64,000 bases of DNA from Sinorhizobium sp. B11 (GTDB lineage Bacteria; Pseudomonadota; Alphaproteobacteria; Rhizobiales; Rhizobiaceae). Below are positions 45,534 to 57,490 of the stretch, one piece after another. The DNA is taken from positions 372,001 to 436,000 of the forward strand of contig CP091033.1 of assembly GCA_039725955.1 (NCBI GenBank), in the 5' to 3' direction. Below the pieces are notes generated by a model that was not told the origin of the DNA, ran no database searches, and saw only the letters and a list, made by a program, of their open reading frames with translations. The position numbers and the translations under genes were made by a program. Within the stretch, counting starts at the first letter, position 1. The number at the start of each line of letters is the position of its first letter.

Positions 45534-45558
45534 GGAACTTTCGCACTGCAATGACGTT
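45534..45558 (+). promoter_or_regulatory. EcfG-type promoter of glgX
   Basis: GGAAC (45534-45538), 16-bp spacer, CGTT (45555-45558): a perfect match to the consensus GGAAC-N16/17-CGTT of the alphaproteobacterial general stress sigma factor. It lies 33 bp before the glgX start and would also drive the topoisomerase gene. Confidence 0.8.
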
Positions 45559-45590
45559 TCCCGCTTGGCCATTCAACAAGCGGGGGCGTC

Positions 45591-47747
45591 ATGAGCTTTT
45601 CCTTTTCCGAACTCGACTTCCTGAAACCGGAACTGGGGGCGGAATATACCGGCTCAGGTACGCATTTTGCTGTTTTCTCCGCGCATGCGGAGCAAATGGA
45701 GCTCTGCCTCTTCTCCCCAGACGGCAAAAAGGAAGTCGCGCGACTACCCCTGCCGAAGCGTGAGGGCGATATCTGGTCGGGATACATCGCCGGCGTCGGC
45801 CCGGGCACGGTCTATGCCTACCGCGCGCACGGTCCCTACGATCCGAAGAACGGACATCGCTTCAATCCCAACAAGCTGCTGCTCGATCCCTATGCCAAGC
45901 AGGTGCTTGGGGATCTCAAATGGGACGATGCGCTCTACGGCTACAGAATTGGCGAGGACGATCTTTCTTTCGATGAGCGTGACAGTGCGCCCTTCATGAT
46001 CAAGGGCGTTGTGCAGGATCCGGATTTTGACTGGGACGGCGAGCAGGCGATCCGTCGGCCGTGGACGGAAACGATCGTCTATGAAGCGCATGTGCGCGGC
46101 CTGACGATGCTGCATCCGAAAGTGCCGGACCGACTGCGCGGCACCTTCCTCGGCATGTGTAGCGATCCGATCATCGATCATCTCGTCAAGCTCGGTATTT
46201 CCGCCATCGAGCTTCTGCCGATCCAGTTCTTCCCCAATGATCGCTATCTCGAAGAGAAGAAGCTCACCAATTACTGGGGTTACCAGACGCTCGGTTTCTT
46301 CGCGCCGCAGACACGTTATCTCTCGGGCGACAAGATCACCGAGATCAAGACCATGGTGAAGAAGTTCCACGCCGCCGGCATCGAAGTGATCATGGACGTC
46401 GTCTATAATCACACGGCCGAAGGCAGCGAGAAGGGACCGACCATGTCTTTTCGTGGTCTCGACAATGCGAGCTATTATATCCTCTCGCCCGACGATCCGC
46501 GCCATACTTTCGATACGACGGGCACCGGCAATACGCTGAACGTCGCCCATCCCATGGTCATGCGCATGGTGCTCGACAGCCTTCGTTACTGGGTCGGCGT
46601 GATGCATATCGATGGTTTCCGCTTCGATCTCGCCAGCACGCTTGGTCGGCAGGATCTGGAGTTTGACCGGCAGGGGCTCTTCTTTGGCGCGATCCGCCAG
46701 GATCCGATCCTTGCCGGGGTGAAACTGATCGCCGAGCCCTGGGATGTCGGCGCCGGCGGCTACCAGGTTGGTGGCTTCCCGCATCCGTTCCGCGAGTGGA
46801 ACGACAAGTTCCGTGACGATGTGCGCCGTTTCTGGAAGGGCGATAGCGGCATGGTGTCGGAGATCGCGCAGCGCATCACCGGTTCGGCCGTGCAGTTCAA
46901 TCACTCCGATCGCGGAGCGACATCATCGGTCAATCTGCTGTCGGCGCATGACGGCTTCACGCTGATGGACACTGTTTCCTTCGACGACAAGCACAATGAG
47001 GCAAACGGCGAGGATAACAGGGACGGTCATTCAGACAATCATTCGGACAATATGGGGGCCGAGGGAACGACCGATAATGACGATATCAACAGGCTGCGGG
47101 CTCGCCGGCGCCGCAACATGATGGCGACGCTGATGCTCTCCCAGGGCGTCCCGATGATCCTTGCCGGCGATGAGGTCGGCAACAGCCAGGGCGGCAATAA
47201 CAACGCCTACTGTCAGGACAACGAGATAGGTTGGACGAAATGGGACGGCCTCGATGACGCGTTCCTCGATTTCTGCCGGGAGGCCGTCGCGTTCCGCAGG
47301 GCTCATCCGGTCCTGAGACAGGAGCGCTTTCTGACCGGCGACAGCACCGATGATGGTCGTATTGAAATCGCCTGGTACAAGCCGGATGCCAGTTTCATGG
47401 ATGACGGCGCCTGGAACGATGACGGGCTGCAGGTGCTTGGCGTCTATCTCTCAAAGAGTGCACATTCTCCGGACACGGAAGAAATGGACGATCTGTATCT
47501 GGTGTTCAACGCTGGCGGCGATTGCGAGGTGCACTTGCCCGAGGTCAACGGCTTGAACCAGTGGGCGCGGGTTCTCGACACCGGCGCCGAGAAAGATGCA
47601 TTCAAGCTGCATGAGCCGGAGGCTCCGATCGTGGTTTATGCCCAAAGCATTGCGATCTTTGCACCCAAGGGGCAGACCCAGCCGCCCAAGGATGCAAGCA
47701 AGGCCGAGCGACACAGGTGGTTTCACTTCGGTCGCCGGAGCAAGTAA
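45591..47747 (+). CDS. glgX: Glycogen debranching enzyme (GH13_11)
   Basis: 718 residues, normal length. An N-terminal CBM48 domain (GSGTHFAVFSAHAEQMELCLF) precedes the GH13 barrel: VIMDVVYNHTAEG (region I), HIDGFRFDLASTLGR with the nucleophile Asp (II), LIAEPWDVGAGGYQVGGFP with the acid/base Glu (III) and NLLSAHDGFTLMD (IV). It removes short side chains from glycogen phosphorylase-limit dextrin (GlgX) or acts in trehalose synthesis (TreX); sequence alone does not decide. The promoter at 45534 implies stress expression. The topoisomerase gene follows at 17 bp. Confidence 0.94.
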   Translation: MSFSFSELDFLKPELGAEYTGSGTHFAVFSAHAEQMELCLFSPDGKKEVARLPLPKREGDIWSGYIAGVGPGTVYAYRAHGPYDPKNGHRFNPNKLLLDPYAKQVLGDLKWDDALYGYRIGEDDLSFDERDSAPFMIKGVVQDPDFDWDGEQAIRRPWTETIVYEAHVRGLTMLHPKVPDRLRGTFLGMCSDPIIDHLVKLGISAIELLPIQFFPNDRYLEEKKLTNYWGYQTLGFFAPQTRYLSGDKITEIKTMVKKFHAAGIEVIMDVVYNHTAEGSEKGPTMSFRGLDNASYYILSPDDPRHTFDTTGTGNTLNVAHPMVMRMVLDSLRYWVGVMHIDGFRFDLASTLGRQDLEFDRQGLFFGAIRQDPILAGVKLIAEPWDVGAGGYQVGGFPHPFREWNDKFRDDVRRFWKGDSGMVSEIAQRITGSAVQFNHSDRGATSSVNLLSAHDGFTLMDTVSFDDKHNEANGEDNRDGHSDNHSDNMGAEGTTDNDDINRLRARRRRNMMATLMLSQGVPMILAGDEVGNSQGGNNNAYCQDNEIGWTKWDGLDDAFLDFCREAVAFRRAHPVLRQERFLTGDSTDDGRIEIAWYKPDASFMDDGAWNDDGLQVLGVYLSKSAHSPDTEEMDDLYLVFNAGGDCEVHLPEVNGLNQWARVLDTGAEKDAFKLHEPEAPIVVYAQSIAIFAPKGQTQPPKDASKAERHRWFHFGRRSK

Positions 47748-47764
47748 CAGGTCGATAAGCAGCA

Positions 47765-48775
47765 ATGAATGCAGAAGTCATCACTGAGCTAGGCCTGGTC
47801 TATGTCAGCGACACCGAACCGGGCATCCGCAGGCGAAGAAAAGGCAAGGGTTTCAGCTACCAGCTGCCGGACGGCACGACACTTGCCGATGAACTCCAGC
47901 GTGCGCGCATACAGGCCCTGGGCCTGCCACCGGCCTATGACAATGTCTGGATCTGCATTTACGAGAACGGCCACCTGCAGGCAACGGGCTATGACGCGCG
48001 TGGGCGCAAGCAGTACCGCTATCACAAGGACTGGCAGTCTTTCCGAAGTGCCGGCAAGTTCCATCAGCTTGTCGAGTTCGGCAGGGCGCTGCCCAGAATC
48101 CGGCGAACGGTCCTGCGCCATCTCGACACCGGTGCCAACGATATCGACGGCGTACTCGCGGCACTGACGACCCTGCTTGATGAAGCCCATCTGCGCGTCG
48201 GCAATCAGGCCTATGTCAAGGAAAACGGCACCTACGGCGCGACGACGCTTCTCAAGCGCCATCTGAAGATTGTCGATGGCCAAATCGAGCTGAAGTTCCG
48301 GGCCAAAGGCGGCAAGCGCGTACAACGCAGCCTCAAACATCCGCGCCTGCAGAAAATCCTGGAGGAGATTGCGGACTTGCCGGGGCGGCAGCTCTTTGTC
48401 TGGAAGGACGAGACCGGAGCGCTGAAGCCGATCGATTCCGGTCGGCTGAATGCCTATCTCGCGGAGATTTCAGGCATCACCATTTCGGCCAAGACCTTCC
48501 GCACCTGGGCGGGCTCACTTGCAGCTTTCGGCGCGGCGCGCAGCGCCATGTCCGAGGGGCGGCGACCGAGCGTGAAAGAAATGTCGGAGGCTGCGGCGGA
48601 GGCGCTGCACAATACGCCGGCAATCTCGCGCTCCAGCTATATCCATCCGTCGATCATTGCCCTGTCAGGTTCCAGCGAGACCTTGGAAGAGGGCGATGCC
48701 GAGCCCCTGCGGGGACTGCGGGCAGATGAAAATCGTATGCTGGACTTTCTGACGCGCCACCCGCTTCCCGAATGA
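47765..48775 (+). CDS. DNA topoisomerase IB
   Basis: 336 residues, the size of bacterial type IB topoisomerases of the poxvirus kind. GFSYQLPDGTTLADELQRARIQALGLPPAYDNVWICIYENGHLQATGYDARGRKQYRYHKDW is the N-terminal signature. The catalytic tyrosine is in RSSYIHPSII near residue 290 (S-R-S-S-Y), with the active-site lysine/arginines in FRAKGGKRVQR and KTFRTWAGSLAAF. It relaxes supercoils through a 3'-phosphotyrosine link. It lies directly behind glgX and likely shares its stress promoter. Confidence 0.93.
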   Translation: MNAEVITELGLVYVSDTEPGIRRRRKGKGFSYQLPDGTTLADELQRARIQALGLPPAYDNVWICIYENGHLQATGYDARGRKQYRYHKDWQSFRSAGKFHQLVEFGRALPRIRRTVLRHLDTGANDIDGVLAALTTLLDEAHLRVGNQAYVKENGTYGATTLLKRHLKIVDGQIELKFRAKGGKRVQRSLKHPRLQKILEEIADLPGRQLFVWKDETGALKPIDSGRLNAYLAEISGITISAKTFRTWAGSLAAFGAARSAMSEGRRPSVKEMSEAAAEALHNTPAISRSSYIHPSIIALSGSSETLEEGDAEPLRGLRADENRMLDFLTRHPLPE

Positions 48776-48784
48776 CAAAAAGAA

Positions 48785-48803
48785 CCCGCGGCCAGGCCGC
48801 GGG
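48785..48803 (-). terminator. Intrinsic terminator of the PfpI gene
   Basis: CCCGCGGCC, one-base loop, GGCCGCGGG, then TTCTTTTTGTC when read on the minus strand. It follows the stop of the PfpI gene by 25 bp. The hairpin may also help end the glgX-topoisomerase transcript from the other side. Confidence 0.8.
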
Positions 48804-48827
48804 CTTCGAGTTCAACAGGAGTATAAG

Positions 48828-49388
48828 TCAGGCGGCGCGCTTCTCGTGGCGGCCTTCCTCGACCTCTTCGACGATCTTGTTGACGAATGCTTCGAGATCG
48901 TCGGGTGAGCGGGAGGTGATGATGCCCTCGTCGGTTACGACCTTCTCGTCTTTCCAGCTCGCTCCGGCATTTTTCACATCGGTCTTGATCGACCAATAGG
49001 AGGTAGCCTGGCGGCCATGCAGGGCGTCGACTTCAACCAGCAGCCACGGCGCATGACAGATGGCGGCAACGACCTTGCCGGATTCGACGAATTCGCGGAC
49101 AACTCTCACGGCATTGTCGTCGATACGCAGCTTGTCGGGATTGATTTGGCCACCCGGCAAGACCAGCGCATCGAAATCCTCGATGTTTACGTCCTTGGCC
49201 TGCAAGTCGACCGGCACGGTGTCGCCCCAATCCGTCTTGTCCCAGCTCTTGATCTGACCCTCCTTAATGGACGCGATCTTTACGGAGGCACCACGCCTCG
49301 TCAGTTAGTCCAAGGGCACGCGGAGTTCGGAGCGTTCGTAACCGTCGGTGGCGAGGATGAGGATTTTTGCGGATTTGATGGAAGGCAT
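48828..49388 (-). pseudogene. PfpI/DJ-1 family protein with in-frame stop codon
   Basis: A 186-codon frame from ATG 49388 encodes a PfpI-type class I glutamine amidotransferase-like protein: SIKSAKILILATDGYERSELRVPLD, then TAA at 49305-49307, then LTRRGASVKIASIKEGQIKSW continuing in the same frame to FDALVLPGGQINPDKLR, the nucleophile elbow VAAICHAPWLLVEV and SYWSIKTDVKNAGA. The family includes stress-induced glyoxalase-III or protein-repair enzymes. The single stop splits off the first 27 residues; re-initiation at GTG 49217 would give only 129 residues. Preceded by an EcfG-type promoter. Confidence 0.85.
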
Positions 49389-49431
49389 TACTTCTTCTTT
49401 CCTTCGTGTCGAAACTCGGGATCAAAGGCGA

Positions 49432-49456
49432 AACCGACGGCGGCACTAATCGTTCC
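49432..49456 (-). promoter_or_regulatory. EcfG-type promoter of the PfpI gene
   Basis: On the minus strand: GGAAC (49456-49452), 16 bp, GGTT (49435-49432). It matches the stress consensus except the weakly conserved first -10 base. Predicted start of transcription falls about 35 bp before the ATG at 49388. Confidence 0.65.
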
Positions 49457-49477
49457 CGAAAAATCCAAGGAAGCCGA

Positions 49478-50212
49478 TCAGGAAACGCCAATGTCGAGTT
49501 CCGGATAATGGCGGAAAATTCCTTCCGTGTTGAAGGCAAGGCGGCGATCGGATCTGAGGTAGTGAGTTATGTTGGGGCGGCGTTCGACCCTGTCGCGAAG
49601 GGCCGCAAGGAGAGGATAACTGCCGCGATAATTGCTCATCGCTTTCGGGAAGGCGTAGACGAGACCCTCGACGATTTGGAACAGCGAGAGATCGACATAA
49701 GTGAGCGCATTGCCGACGATATAGTCCGAGCCTTCCGGATTCTGGTTCAGCACCCTTTCGAAATAGCCGAGGAATTTCGGAATACGCTCCTTGATGAAGG
49801 CGGCAGACCGGGCCTTCGCTTCTTCCTTCTGATCTTCGTAATAGAGCGAGGTCGCGATCGGATGGTGTGTGTCGTGCACTTCGGCCACAAAATCGGTGAT
49901 GGTGAGCTGCAGGCCGTTTACGACATAGCGTAGCCCTTCGTCGTCAGGCGCCAGCCCGAGTTTGGGGCCTAGATAGAGGAGGATGTTGGCGACATGCGAG
50001 ATAATGAGATCGCCGTCTTTCAGGAAGGGCGGGGCAAAGGGGGGCAGCGCCTCGCCATCGCTCTGCATGACGGCAAGCATGGCGCCAGTGCCGCGCCCGC
50101 GACCCGACTGGCGGCTGATGTCTATATACTCGGCACCCGCTTCCTCGAGGGCCAGCCGCACAAATTCGCCACGGCCTTGAATGCCGTCCCAGTAATAGAG
50201 TTCGTAAGCCAT
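49478..50212 (-). CDS. Glutathione S-transferase-like protein
   Basis: 244 residues from ATG 50212 (GAGGG upstream). The N-terminal thioredoxin-like domain starts MAYELYYWDGIQGRGEFVRLALEEAGAEY and includes the GSH-binding loop FLKDGDLIISHVANILLYLG. The all-helical C-terminal domain has YIVGNALTYVDLSLFQIVEGL. It probably detoxifies electrophiles. It is 16 bp behind DUF3175 and likely belongs to the transcript from the promoter at 50934-50958. Confidence 0.85.
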   Translation of the reverse strand: MAYELYYWDGIQGRGEFVRLALEEAGAEYIDISRQSGRGRGTGAMLAVMQSDGEALPPFAPPFLKDGDLIISHVANILLYLGPKLGLAPDDEGLRYVVNGLQLTITDFVAEVHDTHHPIATSLYYEDQKEEAKARSAAFIKERIPKFLGYFERVLNQNPEGSDYIVGNALTYVDLSLFQIVEGLVYAFPKAMSNYRGSYPLLAALRDRVERRPNITHYLRSDRRLAFNTEGIFRHYPELDIGVS

Positions 50213-50228
50213 CTGCCCTCGTAGTTTC

Positions 50229-50519
50229 TCAGTGTCCGGATTCGCGTCCGAAATCCTTGCGCAATTCACCCTTCGCCTTTTCAAGTGTGCCTTTCTGCTT
50301 CTTCGTCAACTGGTCACCGGCGCGGTTGATGTAGAAGGTCAGCATCGACATGGCCGAGCGGAAGGGGCTCGATTTGCGCCGCTGGCTGCTTTCAGCCGAC
50401 TGTTTCAGTGATTCTGCTATCTTTTTCGGATTGCTCGATTTGAAAACGCCTTCTTTGAGGTCCATCGCATCACTGTTTTCGGTCACGTCCTGCGACCATT
50501 TCTTGGTCTTCTTCGCCAT
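50229..50519 (-). CDS. DUF3175 family protein
   Basis: 96 residues from ATG 50519 (MAKKTKKWSQDVTENSDAMDLKEGVF). Highly charged, soluble and lysine-rich, with SSPFRSAMSMLTFYINRAG and a basic C-terminus. Matches DUF3175, a small family of unknown function. It lies between the KGG-repeat protein and GST genes in what looks like one stress operon. Confidence 0.82.
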   Translation of the reverse strand: MAKKTKKWSQDVTENSDAMDLKEGVFKSSNPKKIAESLKQSAESSQRRKSSPFRSAMSMLTFYINRAGDQLTKKQKGTLEKAKGELRKDFGRESGH

Positions 50520-50585
50520 CGTAAAAATCCTTCGGAGAAACGCCAAGCCTGCGCACCCGCCGCTTTGTTTCTGATCGCTGGCCTC

Positions 50586-50900
50586 TCAGTGGTGGGCGTG
50601 CTGGTCGTTGCGCTTGCGCGTGGCGGCCGCCTTTTTGGCTGATGCTGAGCGCTCTTCTTTCGAACGGGACGCAGAAGCGTGGCCGCCGATGCGCCCGCCC
50701 TTCTCGGAGGATTCGTGCGTATCCTTCTTGCCTCGGCCCGAACCGGATTTGTTGCCGCCACCGCTTTCCTTGTTGACGGTTGCCCAGGCTCGGCGCTCGG
50801 CTTCCCCGTGAGAAACGCCGCGGTCCTCGTAGCCTTCCTCGATATGCTCGGCCTTCCTCTTCTGCTTATCCGTGTAGGCGGATTTGTCACCTTTCGGCAT
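50586..50900 (-). CDS. KGG-repeat small stress protein
   Basis: 104 residues from ATG 50900 with GGAGG upstream. N-terminal part: YTDKQKRKAEHIEEGYEDRGVSHGEAERRAWATVN, a conserved helical module often annotated as plasmid stabilisation. The rest is a Gly/Lys/Ser-rich disordered tail with EKGGRIGGHASASRSKEER, similar to KGG stress proteins such as YciG. Function unknown; the family is typically stress-induced. First gene of a likely operon with DUF3175 and GST. Confidence 0.8.
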   Translation of the reverse strand: MPKGDKSAYTDKQKRKAEHIEEGYEDRGVSHGEAERRAWATVNKESGGGNKSGSGRGKKDTHESSEKGGRIGGHASASRSKEERSASAKKAAATRKRNDQHAHH

Positions 50901-50933
50901 GGCTGCCTCCTCTGACGTGTGTGAATGAAACTG

Positions 50934-50958
50934 AACTGCTGGCTTTCCCAAAAGTTCC
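50934..50958 (-). promoter_or_regulatory. EcfG-type promoter of the KGG-protein operon
   Basis: On the minus strand: GGAAC (50958-50954), 16 bp, AGTT (50937-50934). It lies 34 bp before the ATG at 50900. Confidence 0.6.
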
Positions 50959-51069
50959 GGGATTTCGCGCTCCGCTGCGAGGAGAGCGAAATCAGGAAAC
51001 ATGCCGCATGAACCGGAAGGACTTGTTCGTAAGGTATCCGGAACTCAGTGGTTCCCAAGCGGTGCGGCT

Positions 51070-53793
51070 CTAGGCGATGGGGCGCTGCCGGGCTGCGGTC
51101 TTCACTGCGCGGTCGAGCGCTGAAGTGGTAAAGGGCTTTGGCAGCAGCACGGAACCGGAAAAGCGGTTCGCATCCGGCAGATTGCTGTTGCCGGTCGCAA
51201 AGACGAGGCCGACCGAAGGGAACGCTTCGCGCGCCAGCGCTGCGAAGGCTGGGCCGGACATGCCCGGAAGGCCGACATCGGCAACAATGATATCTATATT
51301 CGTATCGATGCCGCGCAGGAGTTCGATGCCCTGTTCGCCGCTGTCGGCTTCGATTACATCATAACCGAGATCCTGCAGTATTTCGGCAGTGTCCATGCGG
51401 ATGAAAGTATCATCCTCCACCAGCAGAAGCTTCAGCCTGGCCTGGACGATGCCGCGGGGCTGTCCGCCGCCCGGCAAGGGCACCGGGTTGGTCTGGCGCC
51501 GTTGCGCCTGATTGGCGAGAACGTGGCGAACTTTCCGCGCCAAGGCTTCCCGTGTGTAGGGCTTTGAAAGGAGTTCAAGGCCGGGATCGAGGCGGCCGCC
51601 GTGGACGATCGAGTTTTCGCTATAGCCCGACGTATAAAGCACTGCGACATTGGGCAGGCGCTCGCGGGCCATGCGCGCGAGCTCCGGGCTTTTCAACGAA
51701 CCAGGCATGACGACATCGGTAAAGAGCAGGTCGATATGCGCTCCGCTCTCGATCACGGTCAGCGCGCTCTGTGCGTCCTTGGCTTTCAGCACGTAATATC
51801 CGAGATCGGTCAGCATCTCGACCACAGTTGCGCGCACACCCTCATCGTCTTCGGCGACCAGAACCGTCTCGGTGCCGCCGGTCGCCGGAGCATTGTCGCC
51901 GTTGGCGATCCGGTCCTCGCTTTGGAATGAGCGGGGAAGATAGAGCTTCACCGTCGTGCCTTCGCCGACTTCGCTATAGATCTTCACATGGCCACCGGAC
52001 TGCTTGGCAAAACCGTAGACCATGGAGAGGCCGAGACCGGTGCCCTTGCCCTCCGGCTTGGTGGAGAAGAACGGTTCGAAAGCCTGCTCGATGATCTCGG
52101 GTGGCATGCCTGAGCCTGTATCGGTGACGGCGAGTACCACATATTGGCCAGGCGCGACTTCCGGATGGGTACGGCTGTAGGAATCGTCCAGAAAGGCGTT
52201 TCCAACCTCGACCGTGAGCTTGCCCGCGCTGTTCATTGCATCGCGTGAATTGATCGCAAGGTTCAGCAGCGCGTTTTCAATCTGTATCGGATCGGCAAGA
52301 CTGTTCCAGAGGCCACCGGAAACCATGGTCTCCACCTCGATTTCCTCGCCGAGCGCGCGGCGCAGCATGTCATCCATCGCAGAGACGAGGCGACCGATAT
52401 TGACGACCTTTGGCTCCAAAGGCTGGCGGCGGCCGAAGGCGAGAAGCTGGCTGGCCAGCCGCGATCCGCGCTCGACGGCGGACAGCGCGTTGGAGATACG
52501 CTCTTTGGCTCGGCCGTTGGTCGTCACATCCTTGCCGAGAAGCTGGAGATTGCCCGAAATAACCTGCAGCAGGTTGTTGAAGTCGTGCGCGACGCCGCCA
52601 GTGAGCTTGCCGATCGATTCCATCTTCTGCGCCTGCTGCAAAGCCGCCTCGGCCTGCTGGCGTTCGAGAATTTCGGTAGCAACACGAACCTCAAGCGTTT
52701 CGTTCAGCTTGCGGAGTTGGTCCTCGGCCTCACGGCGTTGGGCAATTTCGACCCCGGCCGCGCGGATGAGCCGGGCATTGTCGATTGCGACGGCGGACTG
52801 GCCGGCCAGGCTGATGAGGCTTGCCTCGGCAGCATCCGAAAAACGACCGGGCTGGCTATGACCGAAGAAAAGGCCGCCAATGACGCTGCCATCGCGGGAC
52901 TTTACGGGTACGGCGAGATAGCTGCGCACAGGAAGGTGGCCGCTCGGCATGCCGGAATAGGGCGCATTCTGCCCGTAGCGTGGATCAAGCAGGATATCGT
53001 CGGATCGAACGACGCCTTCGCCGCCGAAAGTCGGTGCGAAGACTTTGGTGTTGCGCGGCATCGGAAACTTGTCGAAATGTTTGCGATCGACACCCGACAG
53101 CGCGTAAAGCATATAACTGCCGCCTTCGCCGTCATCGACATTGTAGAAAAAGGCGCCGAACTCAGCAGCCGTCAACGCCACTCCTGCATCGACGGCGATC
53201 TGCGTCAGGCGGTCGACATTGAGCTCGGCCGTGATTGCCGAGCCGGCGCGATTGACGACGGCGAGTGTTGCGGATTTTTCCTGCGCTTCATCCAACGCAA
53301 GGCGCTCCCGGCGCTTTGCGAGTACCTGATCCGTCACTTCCATGGTCGCGCAGAGAATGCCGGCTACCTTGCCGTCGTCGTCCCGCAGCGGCGTGTATGA
53401 AAAAGTGAACCAGGTATCTTCCGTCTGCCCCTCGCGCCGCATGGGAACGTGCAGTTCCTTGTAGAGCTGCGACTGGCCGTTTAGCGTGGCCTTCACAATC
53501 GGTTCGAATTGCGGCCAGATATCCGACCAAACTTGCTGAAACGGCCTTCCGAGGGCGGCAGGATGCCGTTCGGGAAAAATCGCGACATAGGCGTCGTTAT
53601 AAATAAAAGCGAGTTCGGGACCCCAGGCGACAAATTTCGGCTGGCGGGAATTTACAACCATTTCCGCAATATGTCGGAGGGAACTTGGCCATGCTTCAAC
53701 TGATCCGACGCCGGCTGCATCCAAACCATTCCGGCGCAACAAATTTCCGATTTCGCTATCGCCTCCCGGCCAGCGGCTCCCCACCCGTGCCAT
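51070..53793 (-). CDS. Hybrid sensor histidine kinase (PAS-GAF-HisKA-HATPase-REC-REC)
   Basis: 907 residues from ATG 53793; the preceding TTG is also in frame. A PAS domain (~40-165, [20 protein letters not shown]) is followed by a GAF domain (~190-345), a coiled-coil linker, the phospho-acceptor motif [21 protein letters not shown], the ATPase core ([51 protein letters not shown]) and two receiver domains ([10 protein letters not shown] and [14 protein letters not shown]). No membrane helices are seen, so it is cytosolic and may sense light, redox or a small ligand. No EcfG-type promoter is seen upstream. Such kinases feed the general stress response in related bacteria, which fits the neighbourhood by inference only. 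Confidence 0.9.
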
Positions 53794-53925
53794 CAAAAAT
53801 CGCTTTCATTCCTCATCCGCCGGTCCATGGCAAAATAGAGGCGTCGATCACGAGGGAAAGAGCAAGCTGAAAATATCGTTAATCGGATAGGTGCCGAATA
53901 CTTTCAATGAGATCGTTTATATTTG

Positions 53926-54105
53926 TTATTCTTGATCCAGCTTTCGAGAGGTAATGAAAGCGCGGCTTAGCGCAAAGGAACGAAGCTCACTCGGTTTGCG
54001 CGGATCGCGAAAAAAAACGCCGACAATATTGTCGACGAAAAGGATAAGTCCCAGCGCGAAACCGATGTAAAGCACCGCAGCGATGAGAAGAAGCGACATC
54101 TCCAT
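53926..54105 (-). CDS. Small single-helix membrane protein
   Basis: 59 residues from ATG 54105, or 57 from ATG 54099 with GAGGG upstream. MSLLLIAAVLYIGFALGLIL is one membrane helix, followed by FVDNIVGVFFRDPRKPSELR and a short basic tail. It is not a family I recognise. It lies 3 bp behind a 25-codon reading frame and downstream of an EcfG-type promoter, so it is probably a stress-induced membrane peptide. Confidence 0.6.
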   Translation of the reverse strand: MEMSLLLIAAVLYIGFALGLILFVDNIVGVFFRDPRKPSELRSFALSRAFITSRKLDQE

Positions 54106-54108
54106 CCC

Positions 54109-54186
54109 TCACACCGAAGCTGGAAAACCGCAGCCGGAAACCGCGGGAATAGGGATGATGAGGAGATGGGCTAAACGGCGGGTCAT
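54109..54186 (-). CDS. Possible 25-residue lipoprotein-like peptide
   Basis: ATG 54186 has an AGGGAA ribosome site at good spacing and is about 24 bp below the -10 of an EcfG-type promoter. The peptide begins MTRRLAHLLIIPIPAVSGCG: two arginines, a hydrophobic run, then AVSGC, which resembles a lipobox. It is much shorter than an entericidin (~45 residues), so it may be a truncated entericidin, a leader peptide for the next gene, or chance. Confidence 0.35.
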   Translation of the reverse strand: MTRRLAHLLIIPIPAVSGCGFPASV

Positions 54187-54209
54187 GACGACTTCCCTGT
54201 TTGCCCATA

Positions 54210-54234
54210 AACAGCCGGGAAATACTCTTGTTCC
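54210..54234 (-). promoter_or_regulatory. EcfG-type promoter of the small membrane-protein unit
   Basis: On the minus strand: GGAAC (54234-54230), 16 bp, TGTT (54213-54210). It precedes the 25-codon frame at 54186 and the membrane protein at 54105. Confidence 0.6.
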
Positions 54235-54379
54235 CCGTTTCGAGGGGCGGACGCAGCTTTTTTAAAGAGCTGTCCAGACGGACGTTTCATTCGGCTTGTG
54301 GTCACCCCCGCACAGAAGCTGGCGCTTCATGACCTTATTAGCGCGCAACTAATTCAAACTTATGACAAAAAAAGCCAAG

Positions 54380-54398
54380 GGGCGCCGTGAAGGCGCCC
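54380..54398. terminator. Intrinsic terminator after the DUF2934 gene
   Basis: GGGCGCC, five-base loop, GGCGCCC, with TTTTT on the plus side and CTTGGCTTTTTTT on the minus side. It lies 29 bp past the DUF2934 stop on the minus strand and can act in both directions. Confidence 0.75.
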
Positions 54399-54426
54399 TT
54401 TTTCATCAACATCTGAAGATTTCTCT

Positions 54427-54759
54427 TCAGGAAGCCGACTTGCGTACGGCCGTCCGCTTTGAGGCCGGCTTGATGATGCCGTTCGTCTTCGTGCTTGCCG
54501 CCGCCCGTTTGGCAGGTTTCTTGGCTTCGCCATCATTCGTGATCTCGGCTGCTGCCGGTGCCTGCGTCTTGGCTGCCGCGGCCCGCTTCGCCCGAGGTTT
54601 CACTTCCTTGCCGTTTGGAGATTTTGATACCCCCTTGAGCGCATCATGCTCAGCCCTTGCTTTTTCCCAATGGATGGAATCCCTTCCCGTCGGGTGTCCC
54701 TCTTCTTCCCAGAGGGCATATGCACGTTTTTGTATCCACTCATCCCGAGTTTCTGCCAT
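54427..54759 (-). CDS. DUF2934 family protein
   Basis: 110 residues. The N-terminal module AETRDEWIQKRAYALWEEEGHPTGRDSIHWEKARAEHDAL is DUF2934, a helical domain common in rhizobia. The C-terminal 60 residues are an Ala/Lys-rich tail (KPRAKRAAAAKTQAPAAAE, KKPAKRAAASTK) resembling histone-H1-like DNA-binding tails. A role in nucleoid protection is inference. Promoter at 54793-54817. Confidence 0.85.
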   Translation of the reverse strand: MAETRDEWIQKRAYALWEEEGHPTGRDSIHWEKARAEHDALKGVSKSPNGKEVKPRAKRAAAAKTQAPAAAEITNDGEAKKPAKRAAASTKTNGIIKPASKRTAVRKSAS

Positions 54760-54792
54760 CGCTGATCTCCAGTCACAACATGCCGTCGTCCG

Positions 54793-54817
54793 AACGCGAT
54801 ACTATTGAAAAGGTTCC
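54793..54817 (-). promoter_or_regulatory. EcfG-type promoter of the DUF2934 gene
   Basis: On the minus strand: GGAAC (54817-54813), 16 bp, CGTT (54796-54793), a full consensus match. The -10 is 34 bp before the ATG at 54759. Confidence 0.8.
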
Positions 54818-54901
54818 AGACTATCGGGCCGGTTTCAAGTGGATTTGCCAAGTAAATCGGGAATATTTTTGCGTTGCAATATTTATAGGCAATAACTCGT
54901 T

Positions 54902-55543
54902 CTAGTTGCCTTGATATTGAACAGCGTGGCGCAGATCCGCGATGAAATTCGCGCGCTGGCGCGCGATATCCTCATCATCGCGGATCCTCAGGAGGAAGGA
55001 AGGGTGGATAGTGACGAGAACCGGCGGATGGTTCTCCGGCGTGAGGATGTGACCGCGCTCGGGCGTCAGCTTCACCTTCGGGCCGAGAAGAGAGTAAAGC
55101 GCCGTCGCACCAAGTGCGACGACGAGATGCGGCCTCACAAGATTGATTTCGGCGCCAAGCCACCAGGAGCAGCGCTGGATCTCCCCCGCATTGGGTTTCG
55201 AATGCAGGCGGCGCTTGCCGCGAGGCTCGAACTTGAAGTGCTTGACCGCATTGGTGACGTAGCATCGCGAGCGCTCGAGCCCGGCCTCCTCGAGGCAGAT
55301 GTCGAGCAGGCGTCCGGCAGGGCCGACGAAAGGGCGGCCTGCAATATCCTCCTTGTCGCCAGGTTGTTCGCCGACGAGCATGATGTCGGCCTTCTGCGAT
55401 CCCTCGCCGAAGACGAGCTGGGTTGCGTTCTTGTAGAGTTCGCAGCGTGTGCAGCCTTGCGCTTGATGTTCAAGTTGGTCGAGGCTGGCGGCGTCGGCGC
55501 TTTCAAGCGTGAAGGCAGGGCCAAATTTCGATGCGATGTTCAT
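54902..55543 (-). CDS. UdgX-type uracil-DNA glycosylase / uracil-DNA binding protein
   Basis: 213 residues. Motif 1 is VGEQPGDKEDIAGRPFVGPAGRLLD and the specific loop FEPRGKRRLHSKPNAGEI carries the KRR(I/L)H sequence whose histidine, in UdgX, becomes covalently linked to DNA at the excised uracil. Motif 2 is VTIHPSFLLR. Cysteines in CTRC, SRCYVTN and QRCSWW fit the [4Fe-4S] cluster of family 4-type enzymes. It probably protects or repairs uracil in DNA under stress; an EcfG-type promoter lies just upstream. Confidence 0.88.
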   Translation of the reverse strand: MNIASKFGPAFTLESADAASLDQLEHQAQGCTRCELYKNATQLVFGEGSQKADIMLVGEQPGDKEDIAGRPFVGPAGRLLDICLEEAGLERSRCYVTNAVKHFKFEPRGKRRLHSKPNAGEIQRCSWWLGAEINLVRPHLVVALGATALYSLLGPKVKLTPERGHILTPENHPPVLVTIHPSFLLRIRDDEDIARQRANFIADLRHAVQYQGN

Positions 55544-55570
55544 GGCGGCAATCTCTTGGCTTCCACTCTT

Positions 55571-55595
55571 AACCGGTCACGCAACCGATTGTTCC
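55571..55595 (-). promoter_or_regulatory. EcfG-type promoter of the UdgX gene
   Basis: On the minus strand: GGAAC (55595-55591), 16 bp, GGTT (55574-55571). The -10 is 28 bp before the ATG at 55543. Confidence 0.65.
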
Positions 55596-55660
55596 TGCCT
55601 GTTCGGAACAACCCGGGGCCTCAGGAATTTGGTGCTGACTGGAACCATACGGGGTGAGGG

Positions 55661-57490
55661 ATGAGCCAGATCTCAAAGAACGGAACGAACATGGAAAGCA
55701 CCGGGTGCTGGGGCGCAGAGTTGCTGGCGGACGGGAGCGCACATTTTCGTCTCTGGGCGCCGAGCGAGAATGCGATTTCGCTGCGCCATCGTGGCCGGGA
55801 TATTCCGATGCATGATGCTGGAGACGGCTGGCTCGAGGCGACTGTGACGAAAGCCGTCGCCGGTGACGAGTACATGTTCGTCCTCTCGGATGGAAAAGCC
55901 GTCCCGGATCCAGCGTCGCGGGCGCAGGCTGGCAAGGTGGACGGCCCGTCGCTGATCGTCGATCCCCGCTACCAATGGCAAAATTCGCGCTGGCGCGGGC
56001 GCCCCTGGGAGGAGGCCGTGATCAGCGAAATCCATATCGGCGCCTTTACACCCGAGGGTACGTTCCGGGCGGCAGCGGAGAAACTGAAGCATCTTGCGCA
56101 AACCGGCATCACTGCGGTCGAAGTGATGCCGGTGGCGCAATTTGCCGGTAATCACGGCTGGGGTTACGACGGCGTGCTGCAGTACGCGCCGCATTCCGCT
56201 TATGGGACGCCTGGCGATTTCAAGGCTTTCATCGACGCGGCACATGGGCTCGGCCTCATGGTGCTGCTCGACGTCGTCTACAATCATTTTGGACCCGAGG
56301 GTAATTACCTGCAGACATATGCGCCCGGCTTCTTCCATAAGGATCGGCAAACGCCCTGGGGTGCGGCGATCGATTTCGGTCAGGAACCGGTGCGGCGCTT
56401 TTTCATCGAGAACGCACTCTACTGGATCGGTGAATTCCGGCTGGACGGGCTCAGGCTCGATGCCGTCGAGCAAATCCACGATACCTCCGGAAAGCATGTG
56501 CTCTTAGCGATTGCGGAAGAAGTGAAAGCTGCTTTCGCCGACAGGCAGGTTCATCTGGTCGTCGAAGACCAACGCAATCTCGTGGAACTGCTTGTCCGCG
56601 ACGAGACCGGCGCTCCCAAAGCCTACAAGGCCGAATGGAATGATGATTTTCATCATGTGGCCCACATCATCGCGACCGACGAAACCATCGGTCACTACAA
56701 GCCTTTCGCCGATCAGCTCTGGCAAAAGCTTCGCCTCGCGCTCCAGCACGGCTTCATTTATCCCGATCGAACCGATCGGCCGGAGCTACCCGTTGGCGAA
56801 CGCCGCTACCTGCCGCCGACGGCCTTTGTCGATTTCCTGCAGAACCACGACCAGATCGGAAACCGTGCGTTCGGCGAACGGCTGGTGAGCCTTTCCGATC
56901 CCGAGATGCTGGACGCGTTGACCGCGATCCTCCTGCTTTCACCTCATATTCCCTTTCTCTTCATGGGGGAGGAGTACGGGGAGAGGCGGCCCTTCTATTT
57001 CTTCACCGACTACACGGGCGAACTCGCCAAGATAGTCCGCGAGGGTCGCATGGCGGAAGCCGAGGGTTTCGGCGGATTGAAGGCCGGCAGAAGCGTGGCC
57101 GATCTGCCTGATCCAAATGCGCCTTCGACCTTCGAAAATTCAAAACTCGACTGGCAACGGCGGGAGAACGAAGAGGGTCGGAAAAGCCTGGCTTTCGTCG
57201 CCGAACTCCTGAAGTTGCGCAAGACCTATATCGTGCCGCTGCTGCGGCAAAACTGGGCCATCGAGAGCGGTGTGCTCGAAGCGCCCGAAGGGGCGGTCGC
57301 CGTCTGGTGGAAGTTTGCCAACCTGACGCTGGCGCTCCGCGCCAATTTGTCAGGGCAGGCACTGGTCCTGCCGTCAATCGCGGGAACTGTGATCTACGAG
57401 CACTACGGCCGGGAAGCAAAGCCTGCCGAGAACGGCGCGCTGCCGCCCCATTCGGTTGTCTTTGCCATAGATATTGAGCCGGCAAATTAA
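55661..57490 (+). CDS. treZ: Malto-oligosyltrehalose trehalohydrolase (GH13_10)
   Basis: 609 residues. An N-terminal CBM48-like domain (CWGAELLADGSAHFRLWAPSENAISL) precedes a GH13 barrel: LMVLLDVVYNHFGPEGNYL, LDGLRLDAVEQIHD with the nucleophile, LVVEDQRN with the acid/base Glu and VDFLQNHDQIGNRAFGER. It releases trehalose from maltooligosyltrehalose made by TreY. No treY lies in this window. It is divergent from the UdgX gene; no EcfG-type promoter is clear on its own strand. Confidence 0.93.
   Translation: MSQISKNGTNMESTGCWGAELLADGSAHFRLWAPSENAISLRHRGRDIPMHDAGDGWLEATVTKAVAGDEYMFVLSDGKAVPDPASRAQAGKVDGPSLIVDPRYQWQNSRWRGRPWEEAVISEIHIGAFTPEGTFRAAAEKLKHLAQTGITAVEVMPVAQFAGNHGWGYDGVLQYAPHSAYGTPGDFKAFIDAAHGLGLMVLLDVVYNHFGPEGNYLQTYAPGFFHKDRQTPWGAAIDFGQEPVRRFFIENALYWIGEFRLDGLRLDAVEQIHDTSGKHVLLAIAEEVKAAFADRQVHLVVEDQRNLVELLVRDETGAPKAYKAEWNDDFHHVAHIIATDETIGHYKPFADQLWQKLRLALQHGFIYPDRTDRPELPVGERRYLPPTAFVDFLQNHDQIGNRAFGERLVSLSDPEMLDALTAILLLSPHIPFLFMGEEYGERRPFYFFTDYTGELAKIVREGRMAEAEGFGGLKAGRSVADLPDPNAPSTFENSKLDWQRRENEEGRKSLAFVAELLKLRKTYIVPLLRQNWAIESGVLEAPEGAVAVWWKFANLTLALRANLSGQALVLPSIAGTVIYEHYGREAKPAENGALPPHSVVFAIDIEPAN

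Follow-up and report, generated by a model that had tools for sequence, protein, structure and literature searches.

The general stress response of Alphaproteobacteria follows the established PhyR-NepR-EcfG model. In Sinorhizobium sp. B11 we examined a 64-kb stretch of DNA (C1:372001-436000, hereafter the window), in which six EcfG-type promoters had been noticed in a sequence-only reading, and we describe here a block of about 12 kb, with seven conserved promoter-like sites of which one is a variant, which is very probably a cluster of EcfG-driven units predicted to be switched on jointly, comprising six likely transcription units and a divergent treZ gene. Throughout, k denotes the number of bases between GGAAC and GTT, so that 16 bp plus one further base before GTT corresponds to k = 17.

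Among the closest described systems, the EcfG1/RpoE4 regulon of Rhizobium etli uses the same motif, GGAAC-N16-CGTT (PMC3892343), which supports the EcfG reading of the block, and PhyR, a NepR-type anti-sigma factor and EcfG are present there as well. R. etli has two EcfG-type sigma factors with unique and overlapping targets (PMC3892343, PMC4167512), salt shock induces its glgXe and a treY-like gene (PMC4167512), and the titles of PMC4167512 and PMC11547076 refer to replicons contributing differently under heat and saline shock and to replicon contributions to stress responses, respectively. The available text on R. etli describes neither a conserved seven-promoter block nor a site-dense replicon (PMC3892343, PMC4167512). 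In S. meliloti the RpoE2 (sigma E2) regulon has been described (PMC3616915), and SMb21442, which showed a log2 change of 4.4 on RpoE2 overexpression, has an RpoE2-dependent k = 17 promoter (PMC6180224, Table 1). We found this published promoter in pSymB DNA, 42 nt before an open reading frame (ORF) related to the DUF2934 gene of the window (tblastn, 53% over 34 aa, E 3e-9; L167), and this ORF is taken to be SMb21442; 9 nt lie between GTT and the last printed base of the promoter, which would be the transcription start. Relatives of topIB, glgX, treZ, udgX and glutathione S-transferase (GST) lie about 2-8 kb from that ORF, all six relatives falling within about 9 kb, and the 40 kb of pSymB examined held 9 k = 17 sites. 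The pSymB locus differs from the block in its gene order, and no match to KGG, DUF3175, sm59, pfpI or the kinase was found in the 40-kb stretch. In Sphingomonas melonis Fr1 glgX, treZ and topoisomerase IB are likewise EcfG-dependent, but the trehalose genes form one cluster (#1273-6) and topoisomerase IB lies elsewhere (#1831) (PMC6599016). Five Sinorhizobium/Ensifer loci (L079, L085, L086, L088, L090), each containing a TopIB relative, show the same motif and spacing, with 17-18 k = 17 sites per 21 kb where the block has 6 in 10 kb. Among the matches listed in a search of the open-access literature, taken as titles and beginnings of abstracts without supplements, no EcfG block or site-dense replicon was reported.

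The six sites of the sequence-only reading are real. The pattern GGAAC-N15..18-NGTT occurred at six positions in the window and at no others, always with 16 bp before NGTT, and the CGTT form was present at two of them, 45534 (glgX) and 54793 (DUF2934), as had been claimed. By gene coordinates all six were intergenic and each was oriented toward the next gene, so that the claimed direction of the sites also stood; the gene following the site at 54210 was specified as an ORF of 59 aa (sm59). A 73-aa ORF (53987-54208), which begins 2 nt after this site, was discarded as its gene, the 59-aa ORF being the conserved one. The features of the block are as follows.

45534..45558, plus strand: EcfG-type promoter 1 (GGAAC-N16-CGTT) of glgX-topIB; motif match, present in 60/61 glgX orthologues
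45591..47747, plus strand: glgX, glycogen debranching enzyme, 718 aa; TIGR02100, 1015 bits, above cut-off
47765..48775, plus strand: topIB, DNA topoisomerase IB, 336 aa; PF01028, PF21338
48828..49388, minus strand: pfpI-type gene (DJ-1/PfpI piece), interrupted; profile matches, in-frame stop at codon 28
49432..49456, minus strand: EcfG-type promoter 2, before pfpI; motif match, 8/9 orthologues
49478..50215, minus strand: GST, likely third in the KGG unit; PF14497
50229..50519, minus strand: DUF3175 protein, likely second in the KGG unit; PF11373
50586..50900, minus strand: small KGG protein, 104 aa, first in the unit; translation, conserved
50934..50958, minus strand: EcfG-type promoter 3, of the KGG-DUF3175-GST unit; motif match, 35/36 orthologues
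51070..53796, minus strand: hybrid histidine kinase, PAS-GAF-HisKA-HATPase-REC-REC; profile matches, no site
53926..54105, minus strand: sm59, membrane-type protein of 59 aa; ORF of 59-62 aa in 11/11 relatives shown
54210..54234, minus strand: EcfG-type promoter 4, before sm59; motif match, 34/37 orthologues
54427..54759, minus strand: DUF2934 protein; PF11154
54793..54817, minus strand: EcfG-type promoter 5 (CGTT), before DUF2934; motif match, 40/42 orthologues
54902..55543, minus strand: udgX, uracil-DNA-binding protein, 213 aa; TIGR03914, 292 bits, above cut-off
55571..55595, minus strand: EcfG-type promoter 6, before udgX; GTT in 16/44 orthologues, [GA]TT in 42/44
55605..55629, plus strand: candidate promoter 7 (GGAAC-N17-ATT), of treZ; [GA]TT in 22/24 treZ orthologues, GTT in 13
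55661..57490, plus strand: treZ, malto-oligosyltrehalose trehalohydrolase, 609 aa; TIGR02402, 685 bits, above cut-off

The spacing itself was examined with a control which needs no alignment, namely the number of GGAAC-Nk-GTT matches at each k from 6 to 39. Between 45401 and 55700 there were 6 matches at k = 17 and never more than 2 at another spacing, while the remaining 53.7 kb of the window had none at k = 17. Seven other 20-kb stretches of the contigs C1 and C2 (140 kb) had 3 matches at k = 17 against a mean of 3.5 at other spacings, with no peak. The genome of 7.37 Mb consists of three contigs, C1 (2.16 Mb), C2 (4.68 Mb) and C3 (0.54 Mb; 535,551 bp), which had 58, 159 and 103 k = 17 matches, respectively, together 320. 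When the sites of C1 and C2 were placed at random, with palindromic twins merged, six or more fell into some stretch of 10,037 bp in just 53 of 20,000 trials, and the clustering in the block is therefore more than chance; with the whole genome treated as one pool, six were reached in 85 of 5,000 trials. The background scan proposed with the sequence-only reading thus came out in its favor, the block being the top cluster on C1 and C2 (6.8 Mb; 6 in about 10 kb, next best 4). In the whole genome it is surpassed by C3, on which an equally long stretch has up to 8. Searching the window with Rfam at gathering thresholds and for tRNA genes gave no matches, and a sigma-70 scan gave 2 against an average of 3.4 in shuffled sequences.

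Conservation of the sites was followed in 68 related loci found by a TopIB-based search, mostly from Rhizobium, then from Sinorhizobium/Ensifer and Shinella, with three from A. vitis and one from a metagenome-assembled genome. Orthologues were counted at 50% identity or more, 30% coverage and with 100 bp of upstream DNA, the rest being dropped, and a site was counted when GTT stood at k = 17 or 18 no more than 185 bp upstream (356 for pfpI). On this basis a GTT site was present before glgX, pfpI, KGG, sm59 and DUF2934 in the proportions listed above, and before udgX and treZ (13/24) in 42/44 and 22/24 orthologues, respectively, once ATT was allowed. The negative controls were clean: no GTT site preceded the SDR gene (0/47), the histidine kinase gene (0/28), the PLD gene (0/34) or the endonuclease/exonuclease/phosphatase-type (EEP) gene (0/28), and allowing ATT changed these only to 1/47, 1/28, 0/34 and 0/28. 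In a footprint over 8-60 distinct upstream regions per gene, with identical ones merged and with the 8 bases of the -35 and -10 elements as motif columns, mean identity to the window over the six sites was 0.94 in the motif, 0.56 in the spacer and 0.54 in the flanks; one locus very close to the window strain (L031) was left out here and kept in the presence counts. Before glgX the values were 0.92, 0.67 and 0.44, with all 8 motif bases in register in 44/60, and before KGG all 8 were retained in each of the 34 aligned upstream regions, with a spacer identity of 0.60. Spacer identity was 0.62 for DUF2934, whose flanks, like those of sm59 and pfpI, were more conserved than the spacer. The order glgX-topIB...GST-DUF3175-KGG...sm59-DUF2934-udgX was found in most of the Rhizobium loci (L031-L069). 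At least 10 k = 17 sites were present in eight of the 68 loci, and in five of these the count was 17-18 per 21 kb.

The putative regulator is encoded on C2, where NepR was found once in the genome, with an extracytoplasmic function (ECF) sigma factor downstream and a PhyR protein divergent from it. Pfam matches at this locus were PF22029/PF22233/PF00072, PF18557 and Sigma70_r2/r4; the sigma factor, of ECF type by Pfam and a putative member of the ECF15 group, had 18 matches in the genome, the next best with 37% identity. An EcfG-type site, GGAACTTTTTTATGGAGGCCGCGTT, stands immediately before the likely phyR start. Following the alphaproteobacterial model, stress would lead phosphorylated PhyR to bind NepR and thereby release EcfG, and RNA polymerase carrying EcfG would contact GGAAC (-35) and GTT (-10), 17 bp apart, and would start transcription with a short leader ahead of the start codon, so that one stress signal may turn all units of the block on together. 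Three stretches picked for their clusters (L110-L112; C2:1345001-1365000, 2540001-2560000 and 3465001-3485000) held 15 k = 17 sites in 60 kb, and one of them is the nepR-ecfG/phyR locus.

The likely units are glgX-topIB, pfpI (broken here), KGG-DUF3175-GST, sm59, DUF2934, udgX and treZ. As topIB starts 17 nt past glgX, both genes likely share one transcript; a site of its own was found upstream of topIB in just 1/64 orthologues and upstream of GST in 5/51, and both genes would be internal to co-transcribed units. The KGG protein, whose name is that of the sequence-only reading, had no Pfam match. The pfpI frame is open at codon 28 in 9/9 relatives examined; ligD was listed under the match in many plasmid records of the R. 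leguminosarum group (H27, H28 and others), possibly in the slot of pfpI. The treZ site, weaker than the other six, stands back to back with the udgX site, the two being divergent with 9 bp between their -35 ends, and 10 of the 12 relatives shown retain GGAAC-N17/18-[AG]TT before treZ, among them L073 with a different, more distant site. EcfG use and stress induction of these genes, as well as their physiological roles, are predictions: GlgX and TreZ may help to convert glycogen to trehalose (no treY was located), UdgX would act on DNA, as would topoisomerase IB, and GST would detoxify. The gene of the histidine kinase was missing from 8/31 loci that hold KGG and sm59; Pfam assigned HisKA (PF00512) to the protein and found no HWE or HisKA2 domain, and it resembled CckA below the family cut-offs. 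A role as the block's own PhyR kinase was rejected owing to its HisKA type and its lack of a site. The earlier description of the whole block as stress genes was retained as an EcfG set predicted from sites and conservation, with the kinase excluded, treZ added and pfpI interrupted. Flanking genes, by Pfam, encode the SDR, PLD and EEP proteins used as controls, and others.

A concentration of sites on C3 was more surprising than the block itself. At k = 17 there were 103 sites on C3, whereas other spacings averaged 12.5, with a slight rise at k = 18 (21), and the 200-400 kb part of C3 alone had 65; six site pairs are palindromic twins and were counted twice. By a crude gene caller, which overlooks genes such as a topIB relative about 39 nt after the site at 359605, 72 of the 103 sites lay between genes, and an ATG opening at least 50 codons followed within 10-60 nt at 60/103 sites against 118/372 at other spacings. 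We scanned with Pfam 28 of the 33 called genes starting no more than 160 nt from a site, and obtained GlgE, an alpha-amylase-domain protein (TreZ-like by tblastn), DUF892, DUF2934-REC, DUF6894, DUF1236, isochorismatase, SDR and others, while for 10 of the 28 nothing matched at 1e-5. C3 also carries repA matches at three places and repC matches at two, distant relatives of glgX (49%), treZ (45% and 40%), topIB (37%) and DUF2934, and an ECF sigma factor (257294-257848), which shares 34% identity with EcfG over 156 aa and matches PhyR_sigma2. A repeat family or base composition was rejected as the source of the enrichment, since the flanks held no more than 0.20 bits per position and only k = 17, and slightly k = 18, was raised.

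C1 and C2 had 217 sites against about 157 expected from two control spacings, an excess of about 60, and C3 had 103 against 12.5, an excess of about 90, so that about 60% of the excess sites lie on 7% of the genome. At the -10 element 42 of the 103 C3 sites read GGTT and 19 CGTT; a separate specificity is not claimed, as eight dense Sinorhizobium/Ensifer loci also favor GGTT (45 G, 38 C). Plasmid p42b of R. etli showed a modest peak, 15 at k = 17 against 0-7 at other spacings. Among 60 genomes of the genus, our own included, 320 was the fourth highest k = 17 total (top 362, same-species genome 329, median 221.5), and the excess is therefore not universal in the genus. We give about even odds to the proposition that the stress response is here packaged by replicon. 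C3, a repABC-type replicon, would then be a stress plasmid with dozens of scattered single-gene EcfG-promoter units, a second, distant kit (glgX, treZ, topIB, DUF2934) and an EcfG-like sigma factor of its own, and the block in the window would be its smaller ancient counterpart on a secondary chromosome.

Several observations weigh against the view of the block as one EcfG-driven cluster. Counted over whole genomes, k = 17 exceeded the reversed-pattern control in only 23 of the 60 genomes and the CGTT form did so in 7 of 10, so that single matches without conservation carry little meaning. The -10 element of udgX was GTT in only 16/44 relatives and in register in only 7/34, the treZ site has ATT and was missing in two of the 12 close relatives shown (L032, L037), pfpI is interrupted here and was counted in only 9/68 loci, and the kinase, which has no site of its own, takes up 2.7 kb of the block. 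One might argue that the sites cluster by chance and that the genes use other promoters, and indeed the 320 matches of our genome compare with 241 for the reversed pattern and 159 and 171 for k = 20 and k = 14, so that single matches on C1 and C2 are for the most part background. This explanation is hardly credible for the block, given how seldom random placement produced such a cluster, the intergenic position and correct orientation of all six sites and their retention over 9-61 orthologues per gene beside clean negative controls, and it is already contradicted by the footprint, in which the motif is far better kept than spacer and flanks.

SMb21442 also rises (log2 2.0) with RpoE6 overexpression (PMC6180224), and the motif is therefore read by more than one sigma factor. 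The sites of the block might accordingly be read mainly by another ECF sigma factor of the same or a similar group (EcfG2, RpoE5- or RpoE6-like, e.g. C3:257294-257848) and not by the EcfG beside PhyR and NepR, an idea which fits the two EcfG-type sigma factors of R. etli, the overlap of RpoE6 with RpoE2 targets in S. meliloti and the likeness of the C3 sigma factor to EcfG. We regard it as unlikely, since no EcfG2 motif was found in R. etli and the EcfG motif is carried by only 1 of 19 ecfG2-dependent units (PMC3892343). Nor is a C3-like sigma factor tied to dense sites as a rule: relatives occur in 106 plasmid records, and seven regions, chosen among the unannotated ones, had 6, 4, 0, 4, 21, 18 and 2 sites at k = 17 per 40 kb, clearly dense in only two. 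Horizontal acquisition of the block as a genomic island, in place of a settled regulon cluster, finds some backing in its position: here it lies on the 2.16-Mb replicon and not on the largest one, and in R. leguminosarum and R. johnstonii 3841 (pRL11) it is plasmid-borne. We nevertheless hold this to be very unlikely, as the gene order recurs in most Rhizobium loci, no tRNA was found in the window and the GC content (0.584 against 0.604) is shifted only slightly. By Pfam, none of 20 proteins of the block and its near flanks was an integrase. Taken together, the conservation across the 68 loci, the flank controls, the R. etli motif and the SMb21442 promoter support the EcfG reading of the six sites.

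The newness of the block itself is modest, namely a new cluster and predicted members of a known regulon whose clustering is conserved. Through it the general stress response predicted for Rhizobium gains udgX, DUF3175, KGG and a small protein of membrane type; it offers a clean EcfG block with built-in negative controls, and it provides a simple spacing test by which true EcfG sites can be told from background. If the reading of C3 as a stress plasmid is true, most of the stress regulon could be gained or lost with one replicon, and if the concentration of sites on C3 holds, it would bear on how secondary replicons take over whole regulons.

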